A stretch of DNA of 64,000 nt, taken from contig NC_049992.1 of the NCBI RefSeq assembly GCF_000003815.2, positions 8,637,283-8,701,282 on the forward strand. The letters are read 5' to 3'. Under the pieces are notes generated by a model. That model ran no database searches and was not told where the DNA came from. It saw nothing but the letters and a program-made list of their open reading frames with translations. How positions within the stretch are numbered: the first letter of the stretch is position 1; each line of letters starts with the position of its first letter. Source of the stretch: Branchiostoma floridae (lineage: Eukaryota; Chordata; Leptocardii; Amphioxiformes; Branchiostomatidae). Shown piece by piece: positions 6,246 to 52,607 of the stretch. A program made the translations under genes and the position numbers.

Positions 6246-9200
6246 ATGGCGGACGTGAAACCCTCCAACTCGAATAATCCCATTGTTTTCTTCGATATTT
6301 CTGTCGGCGGACAGGTAGGTTCTGTCAGCGGGTTGGGAATGTCTAAGGCAATGTCTCAAAGTGCGATATGACATGAATTTGAGCGGACTTGGTGTAATAT
6401 AGAACGGGGAATTGTATAAATGTTTGGGGAGGGGGGCTTACACATGTGCTCAGTTGATGATCATGCGGTATCGTATGCAGTAGTTGTCATATAACACATA
6501 TGAAGGACGTTATTGAAATTAAAAGAAAGAAATGATAAAGACCGTCATTATCACAGATAGCACCCTATGCCACAGATATCACCATATGCTCTTTAGATAA
6601 TCTGTAACTTGCCTTAGATATCAAAGAAGTTATAACTTATACGTCCTGTGTCATCTTTCTTTTGTTTTGCAGGAAATTGGCAGGATAAAAATGGAGCTGT
6701 TTGCAGACATCGTTCCAAAAACTGCTGAGAATTTCAGGTGAGTGACTTCAGTACTCTAGTTGACCCCCACCATCTCAATTTATGTGCACGTACACAACAT
6801 ATCAAGAAACAATACAATTAAATGTAAAAATTTTATGTACCAACCAGTTTTAACTCGACTGTGTACAGTACTATATGCCCCTTTTAAATGTGTTCACGGT
6901 TGTGAGTGTGCAGCGATGGTAAAAATAATTTCTATTTGCAGCATTTTAGAAGAATTTTGCCATAATAGGTTAACAGTTATATTTACCAAAATGTAGTTAC
7001 CTCATTTGAATTATACAGATTTTGAATTTAAGTAGAAAACATATCAAATTGTACTTTCCTTGATTGTCCCACACTTGTTCCACAGAGTACTCTGCACAGG
7101 AGAATACAGAAAGGATGGAGTGCCTATTGGGTTCAAGGGGTCATCATTCCACAGGTTAGTCTGATATAGATGAACAATCTACTCTCCAGAAACTAAATGG
7201 TGAATAACCTGCTATGTCATGCCTGGGTTATGACAACGTTCATTACAGGTGTTCCGGACTGTTTATCACATTCTCATGGGTGTCTACTGTGTTGTTACAT
7301 GGGCTTCTATAGAATAAATCATATCATTTGAAAAAGACTCAAATGCACATTGAAAATGTGAATGCTGAACTCGGATGTTGAAATTGTTGTTGTTACAATA
7401 TTTGTTAGACATATTTTCTTCGGGTTGGTATGACATAAGTAAAATACAACATAAGTGTATTCTGCATCAACCTCAGTCCCAGCCATACCACAGGTCGGAT
7501 CAACCTTCTGTTGCCAGGGTTGGGCTGATATCTTACTTGTATTTCATATAAATATATCTACTCACCAGCTTGGTGTGTTCTATATCATATATATTTTATT
7601 ACAAAATTGTAGTCAATTCTTTTGAACTTTTGAAGTACTGACTTGATACCACACAGTGTTGTAAGGGATAATCATGCAGTCTCTGTCTATTTGTATTTGA
7701 AGATGATTGGGTACCAGTAAACAAACTACTGAGGTACAATGTTTTCTTGACTGACAAACCTTTTGTTTCCTTGTCTTCACCAGAGTCATTAAGGACTTCA
7801 TGATCCAAGGAGGAGATTTTGTCAATGTGAGTAATACCTGTAATACATTTGTTGCCAACTTGGTGACTTTTTTTGTGGATACATGTGAAAAATCACACGA
7901 AGTGTAAGGTATACATGTAGTTTGCTGCCTAGGTTAGTAAGGAGCAATTGATATCTCCCTTTGCACTAACTTTCCATTGGTTAAAAGGTTAGACTACAGT
8001 TAGATGGGAACTAATGACAGGCACTTTAATTCAGGGTTCTAGCTAGTGCATTTTAGCGTAGTGGGCCACTACGTTAAAATGTGTGACCCCTACGCTAAAA
8101 TAAGGGCCACTACACTAATTTTTAACAAGTGTAGTGGTGCTTTGCTGTCATTTGCTTGTTCAACAATGACTAATCAATGTCTGAACAATGAAAAATGATG
8201 ATATGCCACTCAAAACTGACCCCAAAATCCTAACTTTTAACTCTACATCTTCAAATCTCACTGTGGAAGGACCAAGATCCCCCCTTCCACACCAATCTCC
8301 TGATTAGTCACTTCGCTACCATGCCATTCCCACTACGCTAAAATAAAATCCTGGCTAGAACCCTGTAATTTGTAAACTCAAGAACTTTGGCAAGCCTTTC
8401 ATTAGGTTTTCTTCACACACAAAACCTTAGGATCCATAAGTTTTCCTGGCCTACCTTTAAACATTTTTGCTGCTGCCATCAAGAATTCAAAGATAGATTA
8501 TCAGCTACTGCATTTACATTGTCACAAGACCCCCAACCCCTCCTTCTCTCCAGCATGATGGCACAGGACTGACTAGTATCTATGGCGGTGCATTTCCTGA
8601 TGAGAACTTCAAACTAAAACACACAGGACCAGGCATGCTGTCCATGGTACGTACAACAACTCCACTTCAGCTCAAAAATACATTTTCTTCAAGGATTGAT
8701 TATAAATAATGTCTTATCTAATTTCCACCAGGTACACATGTCTGTCTTGCAAGCTAACAGGGACCTTTGTCAAGGCTTGATGTTAAGGCTCTCAGAACGA
8801 AATGGGATGAAACAAAAAATATTGACAATCTGATTCAACAGCACACTTAGCAGCCTTCAGCCATTAAAATTAAAAATTCTGTCCATCTCTTTGACTTGTA
8901 TAAGTCAGTGTTGTTCGCCTTAGTCCACCTCCAATGGTAGTGGATTAGCAACAGTTAGAAGTACGATGGAACTAACAAGACTAAATTCCAGAATATGACT
9001 TTTGAGGATGTTTTGTTTTTGCCACAGGCCAACAGCGGTCCCAACACGAACGGCTGCCAGTTTTTCATCACCTGTGCCAAGTGTGACTTCCTGGATGGCA
9101 AACACGTGGTGTTTGGTACGTGGTGCTTGCAAAACTCGTGGGGTTCAATGCACCTTTCTCACGTGGCGGGCATGATAGATCTAAAATGAGTTCAATGAGG

Positions 9201-10498
9201 CAAACAAAAGACTGTCCATCATAATTAGCAGTTCAACCAATGATAGCATGGGAATTAGAAAATCGACCAATAAGAGAATGTCTGCATGGCTGTCAAATAT
9301 TTGCATCATTATTATATTTTTATTTTGCATCTCTTAAGGGACTATGGGATCAGTCTATGTTACTCTGAATTGCTATATCTGTCGGTGCATAACACTAGTT
9401 ATAATATTTATTATCTTGTATTGTGAAAATTTGTATGGTTTGAGGAAAACTAAATAGGAGCGGATTTTAGAAATAAGTTTTGTCTGTTTGCCTCATTGAC
9501 CTCGTCTTCAATCTATCATGGCCGCCACGCGAGAAAGGTGTATAGATGGCGTTGTTGATTGAGTTGTTTATTCATTTATTCGGTAGGCAACACTCCCAAA
9601 GATGACGATTGTCCTGTTGACAAGATGTTGTTGTTGCAAGCATGTGAGCACTGATGAACGTAACATGTTAAGTAGATCAAGTTGAGGACAGTACATTGTA
9701 GGTAGTGTTTTTCATGTACATACATAAAGTTATTTAATACCTGTCAAATATGTAAAGTTTTCTCACTAACTTCACAGGTAAACATTACTATACTTCAATG
9801 TTGTAATGCCATATAAAGTTCCTAGTATTAATAGTTATGGACTTAAGAAATTCCACTTCCCAAGGTTTTGAAAGCTATGCTAACTTTGAGCCAATCATTT
9901 TCTGCCCTTCTTCCTGCAGGTAAGGTGGTGGATGGAATGTTGGTAGTCCGGAAGGTGGAGGTAAGTGATGTCTGATTGGTCAGTTTTGTCTTTACTAACA
10001 AAGTTCTATTTCAGTCTTCATTTAGTCCCACATAACTGGGTACAGTTTTATCAAGGGAAAAGGCTGATGTTACACAAGAAAAAAGGCTGATGTTACATTG
10101 GAAATAAGAATTTGTTTTACACACAACCTAAAATATGTCTTTTACCTTGAGTATAAAGAAAATTATTTTAATGAAATAGATGAAGTGTCATGTCAAACCT
10201 GACAAAACCAGTATTCACGAAAATAGGGCTATCTTGTCTGACATAGCCATATCTTGTCTTCAGTGTCACTGATGAAAGATGGTGGAATAGGTGGATACCA
10301 TCTGAAACGTTTGACCGTTTCCAAAGTCATATCTAGTTGCTTGAGCAACTGCTTTTTGGCATATCTTATTACCTGGACGTCTAACCTACATCAACGCATC
10401 TTGTCTGACATATTTTTCTAATGTTTCAGAATGTGCCAACTGGACCCAATAATAAACCCAAGATCCCTGTCACTGTGGCACAATGTGGAGAGATGTGA
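6246..10498 (+). CDS. PPIH: Peptidyl-prolyl cis-trans isomerase H (cyclophilin H), complete, 8 exons
   Basis: Exons are 6246-6314, 6673-6737, 7086-7154, 7784-7826, 8554-8646, 9028-9115, 9920-9960 and 10430-10498. All have GT..AG junctions with matching phases, giving 178 residues plus stop (human 177). It is a single cyclophilin domain. Catalytic positions by cyclophilin A homology are present: Arg68, Phe73 and Gln76 in [14 protein letters not shown], Phe126 in CQFFITC, and His139 in LDGKHVVFG. The [11 protein letters not shown] stretch and the C-terminal [13 protein letters not shown] distinguish PPIH from cyclophilin A. Known role: prolyl isomerase bound to PRPF4/PRPF3 of the U4/U6 snRNP in the spliceosome. 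Small differences from vertebrates are Val-Leu after NFR at the exon 2/3 join and His83 before DGTG. The start ATG sits in GCGG-rich context with an Ala second codon. Introns hold several TIR elements. Confidence 0.97.
7425..7560. repeat. Interspersed repeat, GGTATGACATAA family, copy 1
   Basis: In PPIH intron 3. Shares GGTATGACATAA, AATACAACAT, TGTATTC.GCATCA and CTCAGTCCCAGCC-like words in the same order with 50825-50996. Confidence 0.7.
8032..8365. mobile_element. 334-bp hAT-like MITE with CAGGGTTCTAGC ends
   Basis: Starts CAGGGTTCTAGCTAG and ends CTGGCTAGAACCCTG. The subterminal parts are also inverted (TTTTAGCGTAGTGGG versus CCCACTACGCTAAAA). CAGGG..CCCTG termini are typical of hAT elements. 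A clean 8-bp target duplication is not visible. It lies in PPIH intron 4. Confidence 0.75.
9151..9540. mobile_element. 390-bp element with ~60-bp terminal inverted repeats
   Basis: Left arm starts CACCTTTCTCACGTGGCGGG, then CATGATAGAT and CAATGAGGCAAACA. The right arm is its inverse, ending CCGCCACGCGAGAAAGGTG. It begins about 35 bases past the donor of PPIH exon 6. No coding content. Confidence 0.8.
10258..10405. repeat. Interspersed repeat, GTTGCTTGAGCAACTG family, copy a
   Basis: Contains GTCACTGATGAAAGATGGTG, GATACCATCTGAAACG, CCGTTTCCAAAGTCATATC and GTTGCTTGAGCAACTG. Other copies are at 10962-11172, 13832-14000 and 31359-31407. It lies in the last PPIH intron. Confidence 0.75.
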
Positions 10499-10927: not shown

Positions 10928-10933
10928 AATAAA
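10928..10933 (+). terminator. Candidate polyadenylation signal AATAAA for PPIH
   Basis: AATAAA about 430 bases after the PPIH stop, before the next repeat-rich block. It is the first canonical hexamer noted in the 3' flank. Usage is unproven. Confidence 0.45.
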
Positions 10934-10961
10934 ACAACTCATTTTGCTTACGTTTGCAAGC

Positions 10962-14892: not shown

Positions 14893-17800
14893 CTACTCCT
14901 TGGCAGGTTTGTCCTCGCTGTGGGACTCCGGCTTGGCAGCGTCTCCATCCTGGTTCGACTGCAGAAGACAAGAAAAAGACGACAACAGTCAGTGAAGCAA
15001 AAATCCACATACTACACAACTTCTTCCTTATTTCCCAAGCTTTCTCTGTCGCTGCGGTCACTCCTGGATCGAGTTCAAACTTTCGCTGAAGGAAACTGTG
15101 TTCCAACACTTTCAGAGAGAGGACTATCGTGTTTCTTGCGAGAAGTTTGCAGTAGCCAGAAGTGATAACAGCTAAAAAGCCCCAACTTTACCTAAACTGA
15201 AACAATGATGAACTGCATCTTTCTGTTCTTGCCAACATTCTTAGAACAACTCTTTGCGGTACTTCTATCGTTCAAGGACAGAAGTAATACAAAATTCTTG
15301 AAATAATGGCCAAGAAAACACCACCCCTCTACCCCTTACTCTGAAACACTATGGAACACAGTATACAAATCCGCATGCACCAGGTATCAACAGCTTTCCC
15401 CACCAGCCACCTTCAACAAACTGCATAAGCAACCAACTTAAACCCAAGACGATGCTGAGAAAATAAGGAGTTAGCTTCCAATAAGCTTGAAATACTTTTC
15501 TTGTTCTGCAATATGTGATTCCTAATACTTAGTATCTTTCAGCCTGCCAAAGTGCTAGCGGCATGCTAGCTGCACTTTTTTTTCTGTCAAATGCAGGATG
15601 CAGTGGGGAATGGTATTTCAAGCTCTGCTGTAGTTTATCGTACAGTATCGGGGGCATCCACGGGCGAGTCCCCTCCCTCCGCTGTGTCCCTTTCCTCGTT
15701 GGAATACTGGAAAAAAAGATTCAAAATGAACAGACCACATTTCAGAAGAGGAAGGGTGCCTTTTAGTAACAATAGACACAGAAAAATACAGTAAATAAAT
15801 GCTAGGCTACGTGGAGGGAACAAAATTCAGATTAGCATGTATATCCACTACAACCAGCCAGATCACAAAAAAATGTAACAATTTTATTTTATACTTCATT
15901 GTTCTTCTGACAATTGTGTAGTTCCTCCTAATGCTGCCAGGTGGTGCTATGTAGAGTTTCAAGCAAATGAACCATTTGGTCAACTTCACGTATACACTCT
16001 TCCTTTCAGAGTCACACATTTATAGGCTCTAAGGTAACATACATACCTATACTTGTTATCTAATATTGATACCAAATGATAAATGTTCAGTGTCTTTAAA
16101 TCCTTAGTACAGTTAGAGTGCAGAGAAAAGTCAGTCATAAAATTCCTTGATTCTCCAGAGAATCTGTTCAAATTGCGGGAAGGCTGAAGAACAAACTGAA
16201 TACAATAAACAAAGAAGCATTATCGTTCTAGGCATAAAAGGCCTGTTGGTTACTGATGTTTCAACTCATTTCGGGTTTGGCACATTTGGCCATTTGGTGA
16301 CAACACGCAAGATCAAGTGTCAAAAAGGTCATATCTTTAAAAATCTCATTGGTTTACGATAAAAAATCACTGGTTATTATTGATCGTGAAGAAGGCAACG
16401 GCGGTCGTTGAAAATTTGATGTGTGTATACCTTTTTGTTGGAAGAAACCTTAGCACTGTACTCTCATTTTGGGGTTGTTCTAACCTTTTGTCAGAGACCA
16501 AGGAATGGTAATGACATGAATTTTCCCAGAGTTTTGGTTGGACCGTTGATCTTACGTACCTCAGCCTTACTGCCGGACTGTGGGCGGCGGCGCGGGGGGC
16601 CTCTGCGGCGACGGGGTGGTTGCCGATCTTCTGCCGCATTCTCCTTGTTTTCGTCGGGGCCAGAGCCTTCATTTGAGCGAGGCCTGGGGAAAACATTGTC
16701 ATTGGTCAAATATCTTCAGACTTTACCCACAGTACCAACTGAAACTAGCTGTGCTCCACAGTATACTACTGACCAGTATACCAACTGAACCTAACTCTAC
16801 ACTTGAAGGAACTGATCTGCTATTCTGCTAACCCTGACTTTCTTCTACAACTACAAAAACATGATGAACTTAACACAGAAATACAAACTGAACAAGTGAC
16901 ATTTAAGACACAAAAACATCTAGGTCCAAAACACAGGACTCCACGTTGGCACTGTCCATTTTTGAATGTCAATATGCCAGTAGGTTGTCTTTACTGCAAG
17001 TTTACTCCAGTTACACTCCAGTGTACAAGTAAAGATTCCTTCTGGAATGGTATCCCAATCTATGGTAAGAGGTCCAGGGGGAGACCCAAAAAGACATGGA
17101 TAACATTGCCCTTGAAGATGCCAGAATGATCACGGTAAACAACAACCTGAAGCTGTTTGACAAAGAAACATGGCCCAGAACCACCTGGCAAAGGATAGTA
17201 AGCAAGAGGCATAGACTCCTTGATGCAGGCCACTCAAAGACCTGATCAAGTAAGTAAGTACGAGTAAAGATGGCCGACCTGCGGCGGTAACGACGGTACG
17301 GTGGCGGTCCTGAGCCACGTCCACGGCGGCGGGGTGGGCCACGGCGCTCGTCGCCCCCCTCACGGTCGTCCTTGTTGTCGTCTCCATCCTAATAAGGGAA
17401 ACAAATAAACACGCTTTGAGCCACAGATACCTCAGACAAATATAATAACATATGTTTTAAGTCACAAGTCACAGAAATCAAATTTATCGATCATCATTCA
17501 AAAACAACAACGTGATAAAAACCCAAACTGTGAATCAATGTCTATGTATATTTATGTACACAACTCATATAAACAACTAATAGTTTAACTTATTCTGTCC
17601 CCTTATCAACTAGGATTTTCAAAGCTTTGGTCATGACAGATCTTGAATGTCAGGTGACTAGAGAGTGCTGTATGCTGGCCAAGGGTAGCAGCGACCTGAC
17701 AGCTGACACTTATTGTGGATCTTGGTATATCTGGAGCACTTACATCTAATGCTGTGTACCTTAATCAATTTTAGGTACAGGTACACAGGCTTATATACAG

Positions 17801-20800
17801 GTACCTGCCATGAACATGTACCTGAACAAGTTTGATCTAATATATGTCATAAATATAGCCAGCTGACTTTTACAGTAATAAACTGTTGTCTTTAAATGAA
17901 GAATTACAAAGCAGCCTTTCTTTTCTGTTTTCAACTGCAACTATCACAATGGTCATCTTTGATTCTGGATTTACCTATGTTAAAAAGTGGTGTCCACTAG
18001 TGCAGTAGTTAGTGTAGAAAAAGGTACACAGATCTTCAGGTCCACACCTGTACCTTTTTTACAGGTACAGTACAGTTATCAAAGTACACAGCCCTACTTA
18101 CATCTACATCCCGGTTGTCGTCATCACGGGGGGGACCACGGTAGCGGCGGCGGTAGGAAAACGGCCTGCCACCCCTTCCCCGTCCCCCACGGTACCCGCC
18201 ACGGCCCCGGCGGGGAGGGCCTTCGTCGCGCTGTTCTCCCTCGGAGTTTGTGCCTCCCTCGCCGCTGTGCTCCCCGCCATCTTTGTCTGGAAGGAGGACA
18301 GACAAGGTCTTAGACTCTTACAAATGACAATCAACAACTCAAGACAAGAAAGTTGCAAGAGAATAGTTTTGATGACCCAAATAAAAAAAATTTACAAAAT
18401 GGAAACCAATTCACACGTCTACATTGTTACAAGAAATGAAATTCTGAATTGAAGTTATTTTAGTGACACAAAACTGCCGAGACATTCTGCATGTGACAAC
18501 AATATCAAGTGATCAACTTGAACTTGTACAATATCTAGAAAACATCTTTGCCTTTATATAGAGATGAAGTAAAATGTCTATTCTATATTTGGTACAAACA
18601 TATGTACTTTAAAGTCACCTTACAGAACAAAAATCAACTTTTTTTCCATGCTGCTCAACAGATACACAAGATAACTGATGAAGTCAACATGTAAACAACA
18701 ACACAACGTACCATCCTGGCGGTTGCTGCGGTAGCGACGTCGCCCGCCTCTGCCGCCGCCGTCCCCACCGCTGTAGTAACGGGGGCGGTAACGGCGGCGC
18801 TCGGCGGCGTACTTGCTGCCTTCCACGGGAGCACCTTCAGGGCCAGTCACGTTGGCCGCTTCATTGCCCTGGAGAAAACGATATAAATGTGTAAATTCGT
18901 AAATAGTTTCATCAGGTTGGTAAAATGCTCATATAGTAAGGTTCTTCTAACACAACTGATATAGTACTCAGTACGTACTTACTTCCAACATTTCGGTGGC
19001 TGTCAGACACCATCATAACGATTAGTATGGCAGGAAGAGAGTACTATTTCGAATTTGTGTTTGAAGAACGTTACTACAGTCAAACCTGCCCAAGACGACC
19101 ACCCGGGGGACCGGAAAAAAACGGTCGATTTGGACAGGTGGTCGCTGAGAAGAGTATCGACTCAAAACATGCCCGATGCAAAGTATAAATGGTTGCCGTT
19201 GTGTTTAATGGCAAATAGCAAGCACACTGCACGCACGCAAAGAAGCGAGGTCTTTAATGTCAAATACAACACGCACACTGTAAACTGTAAATTTAACCCC
19301 AAAATCCGACGCAAACTGGCCGATTTCGGAACAAAATCGCGCTAATTATCATAAAAAATCGATGAAAACCTCAATCTTGAAAATGATGCGGTCGTTATAG
19401 GTCGCAATTTGGGCCGGTCGCGGTCGCGTTGGCCAGGTGGTCGTAGAGAAAAGGTCGCTTAATGCTTACGTCAATGGGAAAATAAATCGGGACCAAGAAA
19501 AAGCGGTCGAAATGGCCAGGTGGTCGCTGAGAAGAGGTGGTCGCTCGGGCAGGTTTGACTGTATATGAAATGTGTAAATTGTGTTCATCTTTAATCATCA
19601 ACATGATGCAACACAATTGTTGAGATACAAACATTTGACATCCTTCAACTGCACAATGCGTAACAGCAAAAAGGCTTTTCTCTTTCTTCAAAAAGTGAAG
19701 ATCAGTATCAAATATATTTATACAATTGCAGCTTCATTTGAATTTTCCTACATCAAAATCCATAACATATATGGCTGAAATTTAAATCCATTTAGTAGAA
19801 CTGGAAAAAATATCAGTCTCCTCTATCTTGAAAACAGTAAAAGCAGAGTAAGAAATATATAAACTTTGTTTTGACATCAAAATCCATGCTATATTTGACC
19901 CAACATGCATCCTTAACTTCCCATAACAAAGGCCTTTATCATCAAAATAGTGAAAGTCTTCAGGATCCAAAACAGATCCATGACTCAAAGTTAACAGTGT
20001 CCCACTAGCCACTCAAGTTTGGCTTGCAACAACTCAGCACATGCTTAACAAAAATTTGAGACATTTAAAAATCCCATGTACACACATGGGTCCAATGCAA
20101 GCTGAAACCAAGTCTCTTCAAAGGTAAAATTTGGCAGAAAATCCTCAAGTTGATTTTTTTACATTATTCAAAGATCTGTAACTACATGTTGCAAACTTGC
20201 AGAACACATTTTCTGCTCTTAGTAACAATGTCTTAGTAAATATCATTTACAGTACTAGTCTGGGACAATTGAATCTCGCTTTGGTAAAGTTTGAATTTCT
20301 GTTGGGGAAACTTTGGGGACATTCTGTATCTGTATCTTTATAGCCGGTATAACTGCCATTCGGCGTAACACCAGCTTCGCAGGCAGGCGGCACGTTAGTG
20401 GAACCGGGAAAAGTTAATTTCGAGGGCTGGAGATGGTTCTGTAACGTGATACTGACCTTCTCGCCTTCAACGACATCAAACTCCACGACCTCCCCGTCAC
20501 CTACGCTGCGCAGGTACTTCCTCGGGTTGTTCTTCTTGATGGCCGTCTGGACAAAAACAGAAATTAAATGTTTTTAAAAAATCTATCAATCATCAGACCA
20601 AAAACAACAACATGCTAAATATGAAAAACCAAACTGTGAGCTAATACGATTCTTCCTAACAAGAAATCATGTACGTGTATAGTGACACATACATGTCTAT
20701 GTATATGTATGTACATGTGATGATGTGCATATGTATTTGTATATGTGCATGTGCATATGTATTTGTATATGTGCATGTGCATGTGCATTTGTATGCATGT

Positions 20801-35800: not shown

Positions 35801-38800
35801 AAAGGGAAATCCCTCTATCATATCATGTCTCAGGCAAATGGGCCTCGCTCAAGCCTGCCACATAAAGTGCTTTTGGAGACCTTGATGTTTGAAAAGGGTA
35901 AACATTTACATGGACTGAAGCTGCACAGAGTGTGGAGGGGGATTTTATTGCAATATCGGCAGAGCAGGCACACCTCCGTTTCTGAGCTGAATTCAAAGGA
36001 ACGAGAATTCGGAACATCTATGTGCCGCGCGCTTTGGTATAGAAAGTTGCAAATCACGTGCGAAAGATAGCTCGCTACCAAAACGCATTTCCCGCCGACG
36101 AACATCAGTCGAATCTGATTCAGCGATGCCGCGGACAAACCATCACGCAGGACGGTCACATGACCGCCCGTGCTCATAAATCTATGCGTGGTTCCCGCGC
36201 CCTCTCCACGCAGTACAGCCATGACATCGGACTGTCCCTCAGGAAGAAATTAATCGAGGGCAAATTGACGGGCAGGAGTCAGTTCACAGACTGCTTTACC
36301 TGATAATTAACCAATGAAAGCGAAGGACGCAAACCAGTCGTACAGAACCGGGGGCGCTGGACGGCGCGAAACTCCACACAGCGATTAACGCTAAACCTGC
36401 ACCGACAAACACCATTGGCCACACTGCCCTAACATATTCCATAGCCCGACCTGGATACAGGGACAGCCCTGGCCATACAAGGTAAGTATGGGTGAACCTC
36501 GTTGGTATTCACTCCACACCATGGAAGCAATTTGTGGCAGAGCCCATGCTCTCCACATTCCCATGGTCTATTTGACATTTTGCCCATTAAAGCTCAGCCC
36601 GTGTGCAGAGCCTCAGGTGCCATGGGCAGGGTCCTCTACCTGGTAATAACGACTCCGAGCGGGGATATTGGGGTCACCGACCCTTTCCAGCTATCCGCAA
36701 CATCTTACGCGTCCTAAATCGACAAACTTTCTGCGCCTGCTCCGACTGTCTCAGCAGCTGTGCATGCCTCTACATATTCCACGCCAATCACAAAGGCGCG
36801 CCCGCGCTCGCCTCGTGCAGTTTGTCGTTGGCGCCTGGACAGGTGACTGGCTGCTCGCGAAAAGCCGTAGTATCGTCGTCATGGAAACAACATACATGAA
36901 TGCAAAACAGTTTCTGTAAAAACCATGCGTTATCGGACATGTTACTTTCAAACGTCTGATGGGTGCCGAAAGCGACACCAACAGAACAGGACATCCAGTC
37001 GGCTACATTACACCTAGTACTACAGGTATTCTGGCCTATTAACTGGTATGGTCGCGCACTGTCTATTGTCAAATAAACCTGTGCATTTGCAGCATTGCAT
37101 CTTCATGGAGATAGCATGTCTCGTATCCTCTAACAAGCAACATGCAGATCCGACAAAGGTTCATCTGACAAGTAACCCCTATCGCCTCAAAAGTACAGCT
37201 ACAAGACATCTCCCGACACTACATGGATTAATACTGTCACAACGTCCAATTTCATACAGAGCAGATGCGAGCTCAACTGAGCACTAAGAGCAGAGGGCAA
37301 GAGACGAGGGGCGTCGGACCTGTCAATCACCACGGCAACCGTGTAACAGGTGTTTTCTTACGCAGCTGGCTCTCGGGAAGGCTGCTAAAACCATGCTGAC
37401 TCTTCCATTGTCTCACATACAGCTAACGCTAATCTGTACCGCAGGTACTAAAAGTCACATAACTCACAAGATTTGAACGTGGCAAGCTGCAGATTGCACT
37501 CCAAAGACTATTGCAGCTAGCTGGTCTTTCATAAGCTACAATTATTCTTACATGTCACACATTTGGACAATTTGAGTTCTTATGTGTAATAGTTTATGAC
37601 ATTTCCATGCTGTGACTAATATCAGCAAACAAGGCACTTGGAGTTAGTTCCTAAGACGTCTGCATGTCCAACTGCATACCGAGCATCAGTACAAGCATTT
37701 GCTTTGTAAAACTTGGTACAGAGATGCACTCACTCCAAATCCTTTTCTTTTCACAAGTTAATAATACAACCTCGTTTCTGATGATGCACTTCTATACGCG
37801 ACACAGGTCCAGTGTTTAAAACGTATCAAGAGGTTTTACGTGTGGAAAATGGTCACAAGACATTGAGATTTACGGGTTATTTCTGACCTAACAGCTGCAC
37901 ACAAGTGATTTGTTATCTCAACCTTGTGGATGTCTTTATCACAAGAACTGTGAATCAACAACATCTTATCACATGGGCCACAATACTACATCGATGTGTC
38001 ATTAAACACAGTGAAGCATACGTTTAGAGCTTTCTTCCAGCTATCCGTAACCCATGAATATCTCTATTCTTATTGGTGATCTTTCCCAAACTGTGAGTGA
38101 AGGACAATGATGGTTCAGCGTTCTGTAGCTCGAGAACTCCTCCCAAGAGCCATTGCTCAGTAAGCTAATGCTCAGTAAGCTAAGTAGTTACGGAGTAGGC
38201 AGGAACTGTTCTTGTAGCACATTTCAATTGTAGGATTTTTCGTACGTTCAGTTGAAGATGCCAAAAGTTTCGGTTGGTTTTGAGAAATTGTAGCTACTCC
38301 TGAAAAGTCCCAGAAGAGTTAGCTCTCCTGGAAAACCTTCAACTGCCAAGTTTAAAATGTACAACTACTCTGGAACTGTAAAGGCTATCGGCCTACGAAT
38401 TGGTAATGGTAAAGACGGGGGAAATGTTGCACATTGTAATGTAGGACAAGACATCTGTGTGCCTTCCACATGGTATTTTCTAGATCTTTGACTTGAGTCT
38501 CACATTTCATACAAGTCTGTTGATCACATGGGCTGTTTTGCTCACTTTTTCACAATTTCAAATTTTTACTCTAAAATCTTGACTTTCATTTGAAGGGTGC
38601 AGATTTTTTTATTTGACACTGCGGTCTGCCATGCCAATTAATCATTTTCCTGTTGGTCAACAATAGGCTAGCGGACAATTTCTTACAAAAGTAGGGCATT
38701 TTGGGCACAAAGACACTGACCATTTTAACCTGTATTTCCATACATATATCAGCTCAAAGGGCAGTTTTAATCTTGTAACTATGAAACTCATTTAATCATA

Positions 38801-39885
38801 CTTATGATGCATTGTAAATCGTGTTGACAGGTCATGCCATGTAAACCTTCACCAAAAAAAAAAGAAAAATTCCCAAGATAATTTTACATGTGCAACTGTG
38901 CAAGGAAGGAAAGCCAGCAAATGACATGAAAATCACAAAATAGAACCTTCCTTCCAATGGCAGTTCCGTAACACGGAAGTTGAATTCTCTGCATGTTTCT
39001 CTCTCAATGCAACACAACAGCATATAAAGTCCTCGGTTCACTTTTCTCCAGGCTTTTGCAAACCTACAGATACATGTTGACTCTCGCGGTAATTTCTATG
39101 CCTGACCCCTTCAGTATGTGGTTAGCAAACCAACAAAAATGCTTGAAAACCTTTTTACATTAATTTTCTTGCTTCTACAATATTCTGCCATGTGTGTCTA
39201 CAATTTTGCACTTTGCCCAGCCTTTGTGCTTTCCAAAACATGACGACGGAACATCATGGCCCTTTGTTTCCCATGTGCCACCTCCTCAACACCATATTTG
39301 GAGTGTGCAGGGTGAAAGGTCATAGCACACAGAAGGGTGCAACTGGAAAGCCTCCTTCAGGCCCTTCCACTCAACACGGCCAACAGGATTTCTGGCCATG
39401 ATCATGAACTTCAAACATCTCCAGTTTTAACCTTCATCTTTACACTGTGCCTACATTCTTTACAAGTACAGAGAAGCACTACTTCATTCAACATGCACAT
39501 TCTGCACCTTTATGACATGCAGAAACCCAACACAAAGGTATATATATATATATATATATCAGAGCTCGAAATTCATTTTTGGGATTAGGTGCACTGGTGC
39601 ACCCAGCTTAAAAAAATGGGTGCACCAAAATATTTGTGGGTGCACCGCTTAAATTTAAGTAGAATGTAAAAAGAAAACTAACAACAAAACTCAGTTACAA
39701 GCTATCAAATTCTTAAACAAGTAACATTACAGACATTTTTTATTTTATTAACACTTAGATCTCAAAAATATAATGTATAGTAGTATACTCTATATTTTTC
39801 CATACATAAACCTAAGAAAATATTTGGGTGCACTACTTCATTCAACATGCACATTCTGCACCTTTATGACATGCAGAAACCCAAC

Positions 39886-39930
<45 letters not shown>

Positions 39931-42681
39931 TGTACAAATATAGTACAGTTCCTCCACATACAATTTGTTATTCTTAACTTTGCAAAATATACCAGTTTTA
40001 CATGTAAGCTTTCTAGTGGATTTTTCAACAGTAATACTAGAAACATGAACAGGAAATATGATATGCTTGGAAAACCCAATGGAGACACTGAAAAACTAAA
40101 TTCAAGATCTTACTACACTACAGTACAGAGGATGGTAATATTTTAGTGTAGAAAATAGATATTAGGAACAAAATAACTGGTTACTACAGATCAGGTCCGT
40201 AGAATATGCTTTCTTTTATGACTAGAACAGGAAACGGCCACAGATTGCTGTAAATACCAAATTTGGCTCTATCTGTTTATCCTCATCAACTGGTATCACA
40301 AGACTAACTGTCAGCTTGTTCTGAAAGATGTCTCTGCTTCAAATGTGTTACATCATAGTTTAAAAATGCTCATAACTTACAAGTCATAATCATATCGGTG
40401 ACTCAGATGCATCGCCAGAAGGATTGTTTGAGTTTGAGTCACAAGGTACTCTAGTTTGCGCTTCGTCCTTTGAGTCTGAGATGCACAATTTTCACTGAAC
40501 GTGTACAGTACGGATTCCATATTTGTGATTTTCTTCAACAATTTGAAATACGGATGTCTACAAACTCTACTTGCTGAAATAGTATCATGTTTTGCTTCAT
40601 CATGAGGCTGATGCAGAAACACAGCAGAAAAGAAACTGCTAATAGGGAAGGCACCACTGACTTCATTCACAAACTGATACCGTAAGAAACTACAAGTATG
40701 AGAGACTTGTGGTAGCAACATAGCGTTTGTACCACAACAGTTTAGATTTCAGTAGTTTGTTAATACTATTATTCATTTTCACCAACACGGGATATTTTAT
40801 ACTTGTAGTGATTCAGATGCTTCTTTCTCCTAGTCTTGAAACAAACCTTAGCAGTGAGGCGAACACAGCAGCAGCATTCTCGTTTTCTTCTCATTATGCT
40901 AACAAAATTAGCCACAACACTGTCAACAGCTTGGTAAATCTTTTTTTAGAGCTATATGCTCCCTCAAAAAAAAATTCACCCCATTGCAAGACTGAACAGC
41001 ACTACAGCATGACTTGTAGTCTTTCAAAGCTTTTTGGTAGCTGTAAGTATTTTCTCACTTATTCTTATAATCACTTGTTCTGGATACACAGAAGTCAGAC
41101 AGCAATGTGATGAAATGTACTTTGTGTAATGTATTTTGTGTAAAGTGTAAGTCATTTCTGTGTGGATGTTTCTGTGTTGTATAAAATCCCAAATCATTTG
41201 CTATGATCATTGCAGCCGGAAAAGAGTACAATTGTTCTGTGGACGTACCATCTTCTTCAAAAGACATGGGTGTATGCTTCATGTATTTTAGATATGTGTA
41301 TTTTACATAAAAAAATGCCATGTGACATCTAAAGTACCTAATGTTTTACCTTTCTAACATGGGCTTTGTTCTCTTTTTGCGTAAAAAAAACTATCGTGGA
41401 AAGCATACATTTACAATCTTTCCTCGTTTTCATTGTCTGTATTTGTCATGTATTTGTGTCTTTTGATTCGCCAATATATAGTTGTCTGCAAACTTGCCTG
41501 TGAATACATACTTTGCTTCTCTGAACAATACACACATTGTGAAAATCTACATCATAATGTCTACAAGTTAGTGGTAAGACTGCTTGCAATGGACTTTGCA
41601 ACACTGTTAGTTTTTGTTAAGTGTTTCATCAGAGCAAATCAAATACCTGGTGGACAAATACATCTTCCTTGGTGTCATCCCTGGAAAGTGAAGAAAAAAG
41701 ACAAACTATTGTCAACAGCAAAATAACACTTCATACATTACCATGGAGTCAGACAAAAGGTCACAAAGGTCAAGCCCCAATGTCTGGGTCTCTGGGACCT
41801 TTCCGTTTTCCTCTTGCGTTTTTAGTAAAAGAACTAAGGTTTATCTTACAGGAAAAGTAATCACAAATACAGCTATTGTTCTCGAAAACGATTTAGGAAA
41901 ATTACACCAACTGTTTCAACGATTTCGTGTGTGTTGCCAAGCTAGTCGTGGAAGTAGATCAAGTTTCAAGTTCGGGTTTGGATCTGGCAAGAGTTACGAA
42001 TGGCAAACGCAGTACATCTAGCGTTTTCTTTCTCAGAAAGTCAGATTCGTCAAATTTTAGTTAAAGGGTTTCGTCAAATTATTACTATTGTACATGAAAT
42101 AGAAGATTTCGTATCCATTAAAATATATACACCCATGTTATTCAAATATAATAAATTTAGAAATTCTTTCTAAAACGATAGGAATTGGGAGTATAATATT
42201 CTATTCGTTCCATCCAAAATAACAGAATATTGAGACCGTAACATGGTAACACATACGTTCGTCAGCTAAGAAAACAATGGAGGCAACAGCCTCGTGGCGT
42301 GGCGTGTTGTTTGGTTATTTTTTTATTCTAGCCTGTACTCCAGTCGCCATAACTTTTTTTCTACCCGGCCCTTTGGAGCTCACCTATTGATGAAGCCATA
42401 GCCGTTCCTAACGTTGAACCATTTGACCGTTCCTCGCACTCCTGTGGCTGTAGGGGAAGACAGAAAAACAATGAGCGGGGAAGATTGCCCCTAGCCAGAC
42501 TGCAAGTCCAAGGCCAAAACGAGGGGGTTGGCGAAGCGGAAGTGGGAGACCATGTCGCATGCCACGACCTACCGACCCTTTCGAACCGGATTTCAGACAC
42601 TAAAATACCGTCTTTACCGAGAACGGTTTTCTCCTTCTTCGGCTCCTGGTTGACCTCGGGCTTCTCTTCGGCGTCCGTCAT
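14893..42681 (-). CDS. YBX1: Y-box (cold-shock domain) nucleic-acid-binding protein, YBX1/2/3 type, complete, 10 coding exons
   Basis: Coding exons are 42618-42681, 42384-42447, 41647-41680, 20457-20546, 18712-18868, 18102-18286, 17279-17388, 16560-16683, 15644-15706 and 14893-14958. Phases all match, giving 318 residues plus stop (human YBX1 324). The start [10 protein letters not shown] is chosen because the in-frame upstream sequence is not YBX-like. The cold-shock domain spans about residues 22-95, with RNP1 ([14 protein letters not shown], 30-43), RNP2 (VFVHQ, 50-54) and the invariant [19 protein letters not shown]. The C-terminal domain alternates acidic patches with Arg/Gly/Tyr-rich patches (for example [17 protein letters not shown] in exon 6), as in vertebrate Y-box proteins. 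Known role: mRNA packaging, translation control and splicing in cytoplasm and nucleus. Exons 2-4 match the vertebrate exon borders as I recall them. Intron 3 is about 21 kb. The exon 7 donor (GTCGGC) is weak. It probably represents the single ancestor of YBX1, YBX2 and YBX3. Confidence 0.96.
17040..17268 (+). mobile_element. 5'-truncated, frameshifted LINE 3' end (reverse-transcriptase tail)
   Basis: Plus-strand translation gives [12 protein letters not shown] in one frame. After a shift it gives [12 protein letters not shown] and [20 protein letters not shown], then stop. This is the usual C-terminal wording of a non-LTR retrotransposon polyprotein. A short AAGTAAGTAAGTA tail follows. It is antisense to the Y-box gene, and the tail stops about 15 bases from the exon 7 donor. 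It is a dead fragment. Confidence 0.8.
19077..19561. mobile_element. 485-bp CAGTCAAACCTG TIR element, intact copy
   Basis: Starts CAGTCAAACCTGCCC, ends GGGCAGGTTTGACTG, flanked by TA. Internal words GACAGGTGGTCGCTGAGAAG and TTAATGCTTACGTCAATGGG recur in copies at 1-197 and 57668-58148. TA target and CAGT ends suggest a pogo/Tigger-type non-autonomous element. Lies in Y-box intron 4. Confidence 0.85.
20310..20400. repeat. GCCGGTATAACTGCC repeat fragment beside Y-box exon 4
   Basis: TGTATCTTTATAGCCGGTATAA then CGGCGTAACAC matches 63755-63800 (TGTATCTATATAGGCGGTATAA and TTTGGCGTAACAC) and, more weakly, 12060-12110. Lies within 150 bases of exon 4. Confidence 0.6.
20680..20800. repeat. TATG/TGCA simple repeat
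   Basis: Irregular ATGTATATGTGCATGTGCAT series; ORFs on both strands here are artefacts. Confidence 0.9.
26672..27130. repeat. Tandem duplication of ~231 bp in Y-box intron 3
   Basis: Both units contain, in order, GCATACATGAC, AATAGAAGAGGCACCTGT, GTCACTTCTAT, GGATGGCAGGGCAG or its variant, CCACAATACC, and TTCTATTGGCTGT, offset by 231 bases at the best-matching point. The units have clearly diverged. Confidence 0.8.
31359..31407. repeat. GTTGCTTGAG family, short copy d (inverse)
   Basis: AGCAGCTACTCAAGCAACTG followed by GATATGATTTTGGAAACGGT and CAGACA. Isolated fragment in Y-box intron 3. Confidence 0.7.
39476..39926. repeat. Direct duplication (354-bp offset) with (AT)n tracts
   Basis: A ~65-bp text from GCACTACTTCATTCAACATG to CCAACACAAAGG, followed by (TA)n, occurs identically at 39476 and 39830. 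Between them lies AGAGCTCGAAATTC and a run of GGTGCACC-type words. Confidence 0.85.
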
Positions 42682-42840
42682 GTTGTTCTGCGGTGGTGTG
42701 GCCGGTGTATCGGCGGTGCCTCGCTCGGTGGTGTCACGACTCTTCCACGCTGTTCTTCCTCGCGCTTTGTTCTCCTCGCTGTGATGGCTGAGCTGCACGC
42801 TGCGCCGCCGGCCCAGGGGCACCACGGGAGAGAGCCTCCC

Positions 42841-42885
42841 ATTGGTCCAGCGCAACCTAGTTAACACATCGCGCGCGCCCATTGG
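42841..42885 (-). promoter_or_regulatory. Two CCAAT boxes in the Y-box gene promoter
   Basis: ATTGGTCC occurs on the plus strand at 42841 and 42881, so GGACCAAT lies twice on the coding strand, exactly 40 bases apart and 160-200 bases upstream of the YBX ATG. The surroundings are CpG-rich (GCGCGCGCCC). Such tandem CCAAT boxes usually bind NF-Y. The transcription start is not visible. Confidence 0.5.
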
Positions 42886-43919
42886 TCCGTTTGAAATGAG
42901 TTATTTTCGCGCGTTTTCCTCGTTGGTCTGAAAGTTTGCAGCTGACGCGTGGGAAGGCCCACAATGCATTGTAGAGTGGATGCGATTCACACACAGAAAC
43001 ATGAGAAACATGTCAAGACTTTGAGAAACAAAATTACTACCGTCGTTGAAGTTTAGCTTCATGTTTCGTTCGAAAGAGCCATCTATGAACAGGACGCGAA
43101 CTAATGCTGTAACAACAAGTAGTAGGCATCCTTCCATCTTTCCAGAGGAAAGAGGAAGATTATTAAACATCAAAATACAATCGTAATTGCATACCTGGGC
43201 AAGTCTGCACATGTTCATAAAAGTTTCAAATAATGTTCGTCCTGAGAAATTTTCGAAGTATTTTTTCGAAAAATCTCCTATGTTTTCACGTGATTCAATC
43301 TTTTAAAAAAAATATGCAAGTGTTGTGTCATCTCTGAAAACATGTACATACATATGATGGCGTCAAATAAGACCAGGATATTAGGTCATTACCTTTTAAA
43401 ACAGGAACATGCAAACATCCATTCTGTCGAACTTATATGCATAAAGCTGCAATAAAGGACTTAATTCATTCTTTCAGTCTACGAGGAAACATAACACCTG
43501 TTGTCAGGGATGCTTTCTATTTTGAGCTTACTCGCGCCGTCTCTGCATTCTCAGTGGCACCGTACATCATTAGCACAATGAACCCGAACATACTAGTATA
43601 TACGTAGGGTAGAAAGGATGGATATTATGTGCGACATCTACAATTTGCCCTGACCCAAAATATGACCCCAAAACTCTCCGTTCAGGAATGATACGCGGTC
43701 CGCCACCAACTGCCAATTACCTGAAATCTCGCGCGGTATTTCTTTGGATTTGATCCAAGTTCTAGAGAGCGTCGCTAGGAGGCTCTTGGCAGCTGCACGT
43801 TTTACTTTTGTTCAGTTTTCATTGACTCAGACAGTGGAGTTACCATTTATAATGGGTGTGCCCGGATAGTGAGTCATCTCATATTAATGTCACTGTTGAG
43901 TCATTTTTGATGACACCTG

Positions 43920-43992: not shown

Positions 43993-43995
<3 letters not shown>

Positions 43996-45375: not shown

Positions 45376-45435
45376 CTCGATACCCCCTCTAAAGCACATT
45401 GGTGGCCATGAGTCAGCGCGCAGGCGCTCTCCGAG

Positions 45436-45463
45436 CCTCTTACTTGCGCCAGCCAAGTCACAT
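45436..45463 (+). other. Candidate untranslated first exon of eIF5A with a TOP-like start
   Basis: A pyrimidine start CCTCTTACTT lies in CpG-rich sequence with an inverted CCAAT (ATTGG) about 40 bases upstream. Twenty-eight bases later comes a good donor, CAT|GTAAGC. The eIF5A coding exon has an acceptor at 50249 with only 16 UTR bases before the ATG, so an upstream untranslated exon must exist. An alternative donor with the same CAT|GTAAG core lies near 45050. Which one is used cannot be decided from sequence. Confidence 0.4.
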
Positions 45464-48135
45464 GTAAGCAGCTCTCTCTTTCTTAGCATATTTTGACGTG
45501 TTTAGCCCGTTATCCCTTACGATGTTTTACCCCGCTTTCCGCTGACTAGTTCGTAGTTACCATAAGGTGATATTTGTGGAATTTTGTAGGTTTTAAACGT
45601 CTTGGGGGAAAGTTTTTCAACTTTCGGTGATCGCTGTTTCATTGTAGAGCCAGCGGCCATGTTGGTTCACCCCTGGCCAGGCATGGCTCCCATAGCACGG
45701 TTTTCCCGCCTTCTGCTTGCCGCAAACTCCCCGTTTTGGGCAACAACTTCGCACGATTGGTGTCAGACATGCGATAATCTGGGAAGCGTGATATTTAGGG
45801 GCTTGTTGGACGTACGGACGTGGGATGAGAAAGTTGAGGGTGTTAGTCTCGCCGGTGTGCTGGTGAACCGGATTGTGGGGAACAGTTGGGGGGCCTCGCT
45901 GGGGCGGCCAGGGTGTGACCACACACCTTCTCCGCGAACTGACTCGCCATGAACTTGTATTCTAAGCCTCGCCTTAATTTTTCAGACGTGTACAAGGCAT
46001 TGTGTCTGTGGGATCTATGTATCTTTTTGTTTGAGAACCAAGACTATGATATCCGGCTGTTATGTGGCATGTGCATCCAGGTTTCAATCTGCTGGGTTGA
46101 CCTTTGACACTACCAAGATTTGCTATCGTATGTCAAATTTTTAGCATATTCTATAACCACAGTGTCTAAAAGAAAACATCTCTATTCCATTCAAAACTTT
46201 GAATATTCTAAGGCTATTTCAGAGTTCTGGTCAACCATGGGTCATGGTAACACAAACTTGTTCTGCATATCATTATGATGTTGTATTTCCCAACAAAAGC
46301 AAATTATTTTACTCGTAGGAAGAGTTTTGACATTCTGTTCTCTTTTTCTTCCTCTGAGAGAAAAGCAGTGGTATAGGTATCAGTGTTTACTATTTTCTTT
46401 TCGTATGTACTATGAGGAAGTTATTTTTTCCAAGAGAAGGTGAAACACCCAATACGTGCCTCAATGGACATGGCTACCATAACTATGACACACTTGAAGT
46501 TGGTTCATGGTCTAAAAAGAAAAGAAGAATGTCAAAAAATGTTACATTGATTTCTTCAGGACGGCGGTAAATAGTCGGTTTAGGCCCCAAGATGAACAGT
46601 TCAACTTTTTTACCGTGGGTGCTGTTGACTCATGCAGTCTGCACTAATTCATTTTCCTTATTCTTCAGTGTCAAAATGTTAGATTATGAAAACGAGGTAC
46701 AAGCTTTATTCTTATAGGCTTAAGCAATGTTTTCTTTTGAAGTGAGAACCGATAGATTGAATTTGGATGTCCTCAGGGATAATTATTTAAATATGGCACT
46801 TCTTTTAACTGGCATTCTACTATTTCTAGTGGTGCATCTTCAACATAAGCATTCTTCCCTATCCAAGTTGGCTGCTATAACATATTGATTTTCAATTTTA
46901 TTGGGTTTCTGTACCATTGCCATCAACTCACTATATGTATGCACTGCAAAAATTGTCGTATGATTATGATGCTAAAGAGTAAAACTGAAATGATCTGAGT
47001 GTCCCTATCTTCATTAGCATTGTTTGTTAAGAAATTGAACTGCAAGCTTTGTCAGTTCTGTGGTAGAGCTCAAAATGTCCCACTGTAGTGTAACTCGAGC
47101 TTAAACGTGAAACTGAAGGGAAATATGTGATGGACAGGCATAAAATATAACAGGGCGTTTCCCTTATATTTGGCTATGTCTTAATGCTGGTGCTGATGAA
47201 TACAATATCTAGAGACAGACATGTTGCAACATAAGCTTTGTGCAATGGCTTTTCTTCCATGAAGGTGATGATGACTCATACTTTATTTTGTAGTTGGGTA
47301 CGGACTAAAATCATACTGATAGCTGTGTGATATGAAATTGCATTTTCTTAAAGCAGAAGGCCATATTTCGTACAAAACTATTTTTTGTTGTCTTTGCAAA
47401 TGTCTGCCAACATGCACAAACTAGTCTCTGGTAAGTGGACCAATATCTACCTTTGATTAAAAAAATGCACATGTGGAAAAATTGCACTGACCCTATCGGG
47501 CAAGTCCTATAGGACGTGCACTTTCTCGCTCGGTACACAGTGTACAAAATACTTTTCTGAGCCAGGTTGCACACTGTGGAACCTGGAGCAAAAACTAGGT
47601 TGCACAACTGAATTTCAAGTTGCACCACCTACAATTTGCTAATTTCTGGAAAAACAAGGTACAATACATAACCTTTTATCATGTACTTATAACAAGCATG
47701 TTTGTTTCAAACTAAAAATCAAATAAATTGACGACAAAATCGAGTTCTGAGGCTCAAAGTCTAAGTTGCACCCTGTGCAACCTGAGTATAGAAGTAAGTT
47801 GCACAAAGCAAAAAGTGGTTGCAAGTGGGTATTTTGCACGCTGGTACTTTCACTTTTGGTTCTTTCACTTTCCTGGGGAGTTGGACTAATGGGCTTGTCT
47901 AACTCTTCAAGTCAACCAACTTAAGTCAAAGAATGAGCAGTCCACTTCTTCTGTGCTGTCACATTATGAGAAGAAAAAAAAGACTTCTCCATGGGATTAA
48001 TCTGCTACCTGGGTGAATCCAATATTCGTGAATCAAGATATGAGCAGTGTCTAAGTGTTGACACATGAGAAGTTCAGTAGGTGCAGGATTGAAGTCTACT
48101 AGCGCGATTGTCCCGGGCAAGTGAAAGTGCATGTC

Positions 48136-48563: not shown

Positions 48564-48730
48564 TGCATGTCCTACCCTACTTGTTCGATCGGGCAAGTAA
48601 AGCTGGGTTCACACGTGGTGACGTGCGTACAGAGTCCGTTTGAGGTCCGTATAGAGGTTCTAGCCTCTACCTGGCTCCACGGGTTGCTGGAAAAATATAA
48701 AATTGGACAAAAGATCGACACATATTGTGA

Positions 48731-50265: not shown

Positions 50266-52607
50266 ATGGCAGACGATGAATTCGAATCCGCTGGGTCTGG
50301 TGCTTCGCAGACCTACCCACAGCAGTGCTCCGCTCTGCGTAAGAATGGCTTCGTGATGCTGAAAGGCCATCCCTGCAAAATCGTGGAAATGAGCACGTCC
50401 AAGACTGGGAAGCACGGTCACGCCAAGGTAGCAACCCCCTGTGTTTTGTGAAGTGCTGTATTTCCAAAGAAGTTGTCTTCTGGCATGGTTGTGTTGTGCT
50501 TATTTTTGTGTGTGTGAACAGTGGTACTCAAAAAGCCATGGCTGGCTTGTTGTGATATTTGGTATTTATGTCATACCTGTGACGCGAAAACGTTCGATAC
50601 GGGTGTTCCGGACCGGGCCGTACGTTTCCGTATCGCACAGGTTCGAAAGGCATATCACACAGGCTCCATTCAAATAAATCGAACTGTTTCGAGCGGGCGG
50701 AATACGGCACAGTTGGCAATTCGAATACCTGATTCGGACGTTGGAACATTGCTGTTGCAACACTTATTGTTCGGGGGCACCAATTTGTTCAACTTCTGGC
50801 GCATTTCGCCTCAAAACATGGCTATTCTCAGGTGGGTATGACATAAATACAATACAACATGGTGTATTCCGCATCACCCTCGGTCTCAGCCCTCCCGAGG
50901 GTCAGATTGGCCTTCGGTCGTCGGGCGATCCGACCCGCGTGAGGGCTGACACCTTGGGCGATACGGAATACACCGTGTTGTATTCTATATGGAAATGACA
51001 TCTGCCATTGAGAGGGACCAACAGTGACGATAGCTGGGGTCAAGTGGCTCACTGAACACTGTCCTCAGTGTGGCGGATGGATGTCATCCCATACAATGAA
51101 AACGATTTATCAAACAATAAATTTATGCTACACAGTGAGGGGCATCGATTTTGGCAGGATAGCCCTGCCCTGGTGCATTTTGTGACAGAGGTGAAGGAAG
51201 GCAAACGTAAATAAAACTTCACAACCATTACGGAATCTCTGCTTAGAGATTACTGTAAATGCATTTAAGTTTATGGGTATTTATTTTCGTGGTAGCGGGG
51301 AAATGGGGTGTTCGCAGTTGTTTTGAGTTCACGGTAGCGCAATAGACTATAGTAAAGTAATGGGAAAATGTTTGTGGTGGTTTTAAGTTCGCGTCAAAGT
51401 GGCCACCGCAAAAACTGCGAACATGATACCACCGCGAACATTTATGCATTTATAGTATTAATCCAGTAATCTTGTCTGTTTTAGGTTCACTTAGTAGGAA
51501 TCGACATCTTCTCTGGGAAGAAGTATGAGGATGTATGCCCTTCCACCCACAACATGAATGTTCCACATGTCACCCGCAAAGATTATCAGGTGAGGCGCCC
51601 ATCTTCACACAACCAGGGCTCAAATGCCTTCAGTTTAGGCCACACCGTGGCCACGTCATATCAGAATTTCATGCAGCACTTTTTATTTTTGCTGGATTTT
51701 TCCTTTTTTTTTAAACACCCCCCGCCCATCAGTTTTGGGGTCTCCAGGGGATGTCAATACATCCACAAAATTAAGTCAGTGTTGTCTTACAAGGGGAAGA
51801 AAATTCAGATTGCAGATAAAAATATCAAAGTTTGCAATGTCGGAATTTATTGATCACCCCTCTTGGTGCAAGTAGAAAAAGTAAACTGGAAAAGACAGGA
51901 AAAGTAAACTGAGGACGATGAGAATTTGAATAATGTGGTATCTATTTAACTTAAAGAACTTTATCTTGAAATGTTTAATGTGACCCTTGACCTGTCTGTC
52001 TTTCTAGCTGACTAATATCGATGATGGGCACATGGCGCTAATGGATGAAGGCGGAGAAGTACGTGAAGATTTAAAAGTGCCCGAAAGTGACGTGGGTACT
52101 GAAATCGCGGAGCGTTTTGATAAAGGCGAGGATCTTATGGTGAGTCCTGTTCTACAGTCTTTCACCTACGTCTCATAGATGTTGTTATAGCTGTAAGACA
52201 TGAAACAAACTGTTGCGTTATTTTAAATTATATTACAGTATGGCAAAAAAGAACAGGTAAAATAAGCAAACCGCTCTGTAAATGGGAATTTACTGATCAC
52301 ATCCTGCTTCCAGTCCAGATTCAAACTTATGAAATATCTTCATATGAAAGAACTGTAGAAGAGAGAACAGTTTGTCAGGGGGTTCATTTTTTCAGGTTTT
52401 ATTACTGTATCTGTACTATCCATGTTTCCTGGGTATTGCTTATTTGGTGTATTTTTTAATGTTTTTTAACTGTAACACAACCTAGCAATCTGTTTGTTTC
52501 TTTTATTGCTAAAGAGAAGGAACCTTGTTTCTGTCTTCCAGGTCACCATTTTGAAAGCTATTGATACTGAATTGGCCATTGCCTACAAGCTAAACTCAGA
52601 GAAGTAA
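50266..52607 (+). CDS. EIF5A: Eukaryotic translation initiation factor 5A, complete, 4 coding exons
   Basis: Coding exons are 50266-50427, 51485-51589, 52008-52139 and 52542-52607, all in phase 0. They give 154 residues plus stop, the same length as human eIF5A. The N-terminal SH3-like domain holds [20 protein letters not shown] and the hypusination loop [12 protein letters not shown]; the modified lysine is Lys49. [20 protein letters not shown] and PSTHNM follow, then the C-terminal OB fold ([20 protein letters not shown]). Known role: after hypusination by DHPS/DOHH it binds the ribosomal E site, relieves stalling (notably at prolines) and aids termination. Residues 1-20 and the last 20 are the most diverged from vertebrates, as usual for the family. 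The ATG is preceded by an acceptor 16 bases upstream. Confidence 0.98.
50825..50996. repeat. GGTATGACATAA repeat, copy 2, forming a hairpin
   Basis: TACAACATGGTGTATTCCGCAT and CTCAGCCCTC on the left are mirrored by GAGGGCTGACACC and ACGGAATACACCGTGTTGTA on the right, enclosing a short CGATCCGACCC-type loop region. Lies in the intron after the first eIF5A coding exon. Confidence 0.75.
51253..51455. mobile_element. CTGTAAATGC TIR element, copy 3 (203 bp)
   Basis: Starts CTGTAAATGCATTTAAGTT and ends GAACATTTATGCATTTATAG, flanked by TA. Its right end is only 29 bases before an eIF5A coding exon. Confidence 0.85.

Follow-up and report, generated by a model that had tools for sequence, protein, structure and literature searches.

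Gene content and organization of the locus

The window analysed here is a stretch of 64,000 nucleotides from the lancelet Branchiostoma floridae (C14:8637283-8701282) in which three unrelated housekeeping genes, PPIH, a Y-box gene (YBX) and EIF5A, follow each other. Positions below are given in window numbering unless they are prefixed with C14. According to hand-built splice models, the three genes are consecutive and reside on the forward, reverse and forward strand, respectively, so that YBX and EIF5A are arranged head-to-head with 7,584 bases between their start codons, and PPIH and YBX are convergent. The triplet and the sequence between its divergent members comprise the following features:

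6246..10498, forward strand: PPIH, 8 coding exons, 178 amino acids (splice model, Pfam, PDB match)
14893..42681, reverse strand: YBX, the Y-box gene, 9 coding exons, 297 amino acids (splice model, Pfam, PDB match)
42401..43000, no strand: putative promoter at the YBX start, rich in GC and CpG (GC 0.55-0.59, CpG observed/expected about 1.0)
45401..46000, no strand: second GC- and CpG-rich stretch (GC 0.50-0.54, CpG observed/expected 0.85-0.92)
50266..52607, forward strand: EIF5A, 4 coding exons, 154 amino acids (splice model, Pfam, PDB match)

All seven introns of PPIH (7/7) have GT-AG borders, the best match in the PDB is PPIH (1mzw, expectation value E 6.4e-100; next cyclophilin 1.6e-76), and Pfam recognises a cyclophilin domain with 1.5e-50. 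The YBX start codon is located at 42681 and the stop codon ends at 14893. The cold-shock domain of this gene is distributed over exons 2-5, and its intron 3 spans about 21 kb. The best PDB matches are the cold-shock domains of YBX1 and YBX2, and the Pfam cold-shock domain was found with 1.2e-25 using a model that lacked the last exon. The tail of the YBX model was assembled by eye; the donor of exon 7 (GTCGGC, after 17279) is unusual. In EIF5A, both eIF5A domains are detected by Pfam, the PDB sequence match is EIF5A, and the stretch around the presumed hypusine site is identical to human EIF5A1. The stop codon falls exactly at 52607, the end coordinate given by a first-pass annotation of the window, and an AG acceptor directly ahead of the start codon suggests the presence of an upstream exon.

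No further coding gene was recognised between PPIH, YBX and EIF5A. An open reading frame in YBX intron 3 (34221-34400, reverse strand) scores like real exons; this frame and nine other unexplained ones are without a Pfam match at E 0.1. The window contains no runs of N, and the gaps nearest the triplet are located at C14:8628721 and at the right window edge (8701283). An assembly join was thus rejected as the cause of the gene order. The first-pass annotation had described the same succession of genes with YBX and EIF5A head-to-head, and had pointed to an assembly join as one circumstance that would refute its reading. The splice models in the gap-free window confirm the former, and the latter was looked for and did not materialise.

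Copy number of the Y-box and EIF5A genes

Genome-wide searches covered the B. floridae assembly (513,431,437 bases, 431 contigs). A YBX query of 119 residues, with six initial candidate regions scored, returned five matches, i.e., four exons of the window gene and one match of 53% on C9, which lies 20 kb from a LIN28-like locus and which we take to be LIN28-like. The Y-box gene in the window is the only one found in this genome. Five Pfam cold-shock hits on C9, C13 and C19 were examined by tblastn with YBX as candidates for a second Y-box gene and rejected. The C9 and C13 loci, presumably LIN28-like and CARHSP1-like, respectively, match YBX with 48% and 47% identity, each over about 30 residues, and the three C19 loci gave no match at E 0.01. 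The Pfam search missed the short YBX exons of the window itself; for copy number, we relied on the protein search.

The situation is different for EIF5A. A family search yielded at least six eIF-5a exon loci: the one in the window, three within 46 kb on C4 (C4:27668703, C4:27691517 and C4:27714731) and one each on C3 (C3:16698912) and C7 (C7:15408472). In each of the five further loci, an acceptor-like TAG precedes the exon for the C-terminal domain at a common position; these loci probably represent a lancelet expansion, which makes the choice of the orthologue matter. Exon by exon, they are 38-61% identical to the window copy. Human EIF5A1 is matched at 65% identity by the window gene and at 72% by an insect copy, so we considered whether the window gene might be a lineage-specific stray. 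This was judged less likely on the basis of exon 3 identities and a ten-row tree built from two EIF5A exons. For exon 3, identity to human EIF5A1 is 75% in the window copy, 47-58% in the three other copies in which this exon is complete or nearly so, and 54% in a fourth, a piece of 26 residues. Exon 4 gives no such separation (45% for the window copy, 33-46% for the others). In the tree, the window copy groups with the insect, yeast and human proteins (90/93, below the starred level of the tool), and the five other lancelet copies fall outside that group with weak support. The only starred branch unites human EIF5A1 and EIF5A2 (99/98). Note that the rows of this tree are short, that two are incomplete and that those for EIF5A2 and yeast are provisional. 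With the same provisional EIF5A2 sequence, human EIF5A1 and EIF5A2 are 82% identical, versus 65% for either of them with the lancelet window copy. Judged from these sequence comparisons, the window gene is probably, not certainly, the canonical lancelet EIF5A.

Vertebrate neighbourhoods of PPIH, YBX and EIF5A

In human, PPIH and YBX1 reside on 1p, YBX2 and EIF5A on 17p, EIF5A2 on 3q and YBX3 on 12p. PPIH and YBX1 are arranged in tandem, YBX2 and EIF5A head-to-head.

Further information comes from excerpts of published gene lists. One human list reads PPCS ... PPIH, AF086102, YBX1, CLDN19, LEPRE1, ... C1orf50, with AF086102 between PPIH and YBX1 (PMC3745408). Another excerpt gives SLC2A1 as co-expressed with FAM183A ... 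CLDN19, YBX1, PPIH (PMC8442321); although this is a co-expression list, its order looks genomic and was read as such. A third human excerpt contains CLDN7, SLC2A4, YBX2, EIF5A, GPS2 ... TP53, in which YBX2 and EIF5A are consecutive (PMC5791184). The genes slc2a4, ybx2, eif5a and gps2 occur both on Fugu scaffold 63 and on human chromosome 17, in slightly different order and with eif5a named EIF5AL1 in the text (PMC3832493), and in zebrafish, medaka and Fugu the genes listed at the T1R2 loci include wrap73, tp73, rer1, ybx1 and ppih (PMC7014666). In sheep, an alphabetical list places CLDN11, EIF5A2, RPL22L1, SLC2A2, SLC7A14 and TNIK within 1 Mb (PMC11161479). As far as these excerpts reach, the YBX-EIF5A and PPIH-YBX pairings are thus found together in two deep lineages, in the lancelet and in the human and fish lists, and three vertebrate regions appear to share CLDN and SLC2A genes along with YBX and/or EIF5A. 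The first-pass annotation had given both human pairs as neighbours. In the listed excerpts, this holds for YBX2 and EIF5A, while PPIH is near YBX1 with AF086102 in between.

A probable single ancestral neighbourhood split after duplication

We consider it reasonably probable that a single ancestral PPIH-YBX-EIF5A neighbourhood was duplicated and then reciprocally lost in vertebrates, much as the first-pass annotation had suggested. The three genes would have been neighbours on one linkage group of the chordate ancestor, and the two vertebrate genome duplications would have copied this neighbourhood up to four times. Reciprocal loss could then have left PPIH and YBX1 (human 1p), YBX2 and EIF5A (17p), EIF5A2 (3q) and YBX3 (12p) on separate copies. 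The lancelet, which did not undergo whole-genome duplication, would have retained the undivided state, plus additional, divergent copies of EIF5A at other loci. The order may have persisted mainly through slow inheritance, and constraint by a shared promoter would not be needed. The lancelet order, the single YBX found and the EIF5A grouping come from the present analysis and the vertebrate gene lists from published papers; the ancestor and the losses are inferred.

Several lines of evidence favour this proposal: the single YBX found, the grouping of the window EIF5A with proteins from outside the lancelet (90/93), the pairing of human EIF5A1 with EIF5A2 in the tree and in pairwise identity, the human and teleost lists, the occurrence of CLDN and SLC2A in three vertebrate regions, and the NCAPD2-, NOP2-, LRRC47- and WRAP73-like genes in the left flank described below. 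Because of these shared neighbours, the regions on human 1p, 17p and 3q are likely ohnologous, and a single ancestral neighbourhood containing YBX and EIF5A is therefore likely. PPIH was likely part of it as well; this is less firm because the orientation of PPIH differs from that in human. B. floridae C14 is most likely identical with BFL14, for which the excerpted source (PMC7269912) gives a one-to-one correspondence with one linkage group of the chordate ancestor. If the lancelet adjacency was inherited and not regained, the divergent arrangement of YBX and EIF5A, judged from this one species, is older than the vertebrates. A still greater age, with head-to-head YBX-EIF5A and adjacent PPIH dating back to bilaterians before the chordates, held by shared regulation and partitioned after the vertebrate duplications, is unlikely.

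A number of observations weigh against the proposal. EIF5A is a multi-copy gene in the lancelet and hence not unduplicated, and the distinction of the window copy is not seen by every measure: three of the five other copies reach 43-46% in exon 4, so that the 45% of the window copy is no better, and its Pfam score is barely higher than that of a C4 copy (57.8 versus 56.9 bits). Pairwise identities of Y-box sequences, some of them provisional, give no clean signal (lancelet-YBX3 90%, YBX1-YBX2 85%). PPIH and YBX are convergent in the lancelet and in tandem in human, so that only the YBX-EIF5A orientation matches. We also surveyed 250 kb of flanking sequence (200 kb to the left and 50 kb to the right), i.e., 314 kb including the window, and a coarse ungapped motif scan of this region detected neither CLDN nor SLC2A (GLUT) genes. 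The same scan gave nothing convincing for p53, GPS2, DVL and CEP104. GPS2, a neighbour of EIF5A in human, has its match on C141 (35923-38815) instead of C14; C141 is probably an unplaced contig.

The number of such triplets to be expected by chance counts on the same side. Our rough model used guessed numbers of genes from the linkage group for human 1p and 17p (60/40 to 200/150) together with the 6,843 families given in the excerpted source (PMC7269912). It returned a probability of 1.7e-3 to 1.4e-4 for both adjacencies and, genome-wide, 0.9-12 expected triplets, or 0.2-3 when head-to-head orientation is included. The model probably errs in favour of chance, since the required survival of all three families on the right copies is not taken into account. 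Nevertheless, with an expectation of 0.2-12, the triplet alone is not decisive. It is thus conceivable, if rather doubtful, that local shuffling within one ancient linkage group joined the three genes in the lancelet independently of vertebrates. The largely scrambled gene order inside linkage groups reported in the same excerpt (PMC7269912) and the deviating orientation of PPIH fit such chance neighbours. However, two pairings meet in one triplet, the head-to-head orientation matches, and both vertebrate pairings are listed in the fish excerpts as well as in human.

It is quite improbable that only YBX-EIF5A is ancestral and that PPIH became a neighbour of YBX independently in each lineage. 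The conserved orientation of YBX and EIF5A and its lack of conservation for PPIH and YBX would agree with this history, but a single-gene inversion accounts for the PPIH difference equally well, and ybx1 and ppih are listed at the same teleost loci in the excerpt cited above (PMC7014666). Equally improbable is that shared regulation, by a bidirectional promoter or by elements in the 21-kb YBX intron, held YBX and EIF5A together. Such regulation would suit the head-to-head order and the long intron, and 372 putatively ancestral chordate bidirectional promoters are mentioned in the excerpt of PMC6292497. On the other hand, the start codons are separated by 7,584 bases and the CpG-rich stretches, one at 42.4-43.0 kb and the other at 45.4-46.0 kb, by about 2.7 kb, which is wide for one bidirectional promoter, where start sites would be expected within about 1 kb. 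Because of this distance and the two separate stretches, the sequence does not indicate a single promoter of this kind. The stretch at 45401..46000 is a possible place for a 5' non-coding exon or promoter of EIF5A; bins at 50.5-51.1 kb, inside EIF5A, are also raised in GC and CpG.

In summary, descent from one ancestral neighbourhood accords with the lancelet gene order, the EIF5A grouping and the vertebrate lists, and it is qualified by the multiple EIF5A copies, the PPIH-YBX orientation and the indecisive chance model. A literature search, which was not exhaustive, found no earlier treatment of this cluster among matching titles.

Genes flanking the triplet

Parts of two further genes were recognised in the window:

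438..4835, reverse strand: 5' part of an ARMC9-like gene (four exon pieces joined: Pfam CTLH_Armc9 E 1.4e-50, ARMC9_LisH E 1.4e-7)
62117..63443, reverse strand: C-terminal exons (62117-62269 and 63291-63443) presumed to belong to an EFHD1/2-like gene

The start codon of the ARMC9-like gene (4835) was placed by eye, and further exons, presumably of the same gene, extend leftward to about C14:8628610; Pfam returned nothing for the C-terminal pieces. ARMC9-like and PPIH (6246) are arranged head-to-head, and about 1.4 kb separate their start codons. For the EFHD-like exons, Pfam gives no match and the PDB a weak one, EFHD1 (E 0.35); EF-hand exons were looked for and not found. A degenerate tandem array with a unit of roughly 25-30 bases, seen by eye, occupies 62300-63020 in the EFHD-like intron.

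Within 200 kb to the left lie NCAPD2-, NOP2-, LRRC47- and WRAP73-like genes, the latter two presumptively named. NCAPD2 is supported by a Pfam Cnd1 domain (4.2e-18) and NOP2 by 21 of 24 motif residues, with RsmF-like Pfam matches that are weak and below the cut-off. The LRRC47-like gene matches leucine-rich repeats only, and the WRAP73-like pieces have no Pfam match. In human, NCAPD2 and NOP2 are located on 12p13, LRRC47 and WRAP73 on 1p36. The flanks also contain a putative amino-acid permease (Pfam E 1.6e-4, below the cut-off). Two caspase-like open reading frames, noticed by eye, lie one on each side of the window (C14:8500788-8501315 and 8726553-8726765). Near-identical open reading frames in opposite orientation (C14:8604691-8608543) flank a 2.4-kb gap (8605401-8607836) and are perhaps a palindrome or an artefact of haplotype merging.

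Comparison with known systems

The SLC2A4-YBX2-EIF5A-GPS2 block of bony vertebrates also holds YBX and EIF5A together; PPIH is not in that excerpted list, and the window is without a recognised SLC2A or GPS2 gene (PMC3832493). The lancelet cluster resembles vertebrate paralogons with an unduplicated lancelet counterpart in that several vertebrate regions, each with a subset of the families, correspond to a single neighbourhood in the lancelet. It differs in that the present case is drawn from gene lists, EIF5A has extra lancelet copies, and the coarse scan of 314 kb revealed neither CLDN nor SLC2A. We do not claim formal membership as a pre-duplication counterpart for EIF5A. Conserved ancestral microsynteny pairs, reportedly described by Irimia in 2012, likewise consist of unrelated genes adjacent in lancelet and vertebrates; the present case is known from these two groups, and a cis-regulatory cause is putative here.

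The YBX and EIF5A families are much studied in translation control. If our proposal is correct, the origins of YBX1, YBX2 and YBX3 and of EIF5A and EIF5A2 are tied to one ancestral neighbourhood, which would offer a compact example of reciprocal gene loss following the two duplications that can be checked; our overall view of genome duplication in vertebrates would stay the same. We view the PPIH-YBX-EIF5A cluster as a further case of a familiar type, the probable lancelet counterpart of vertebrate ohnologue regions.

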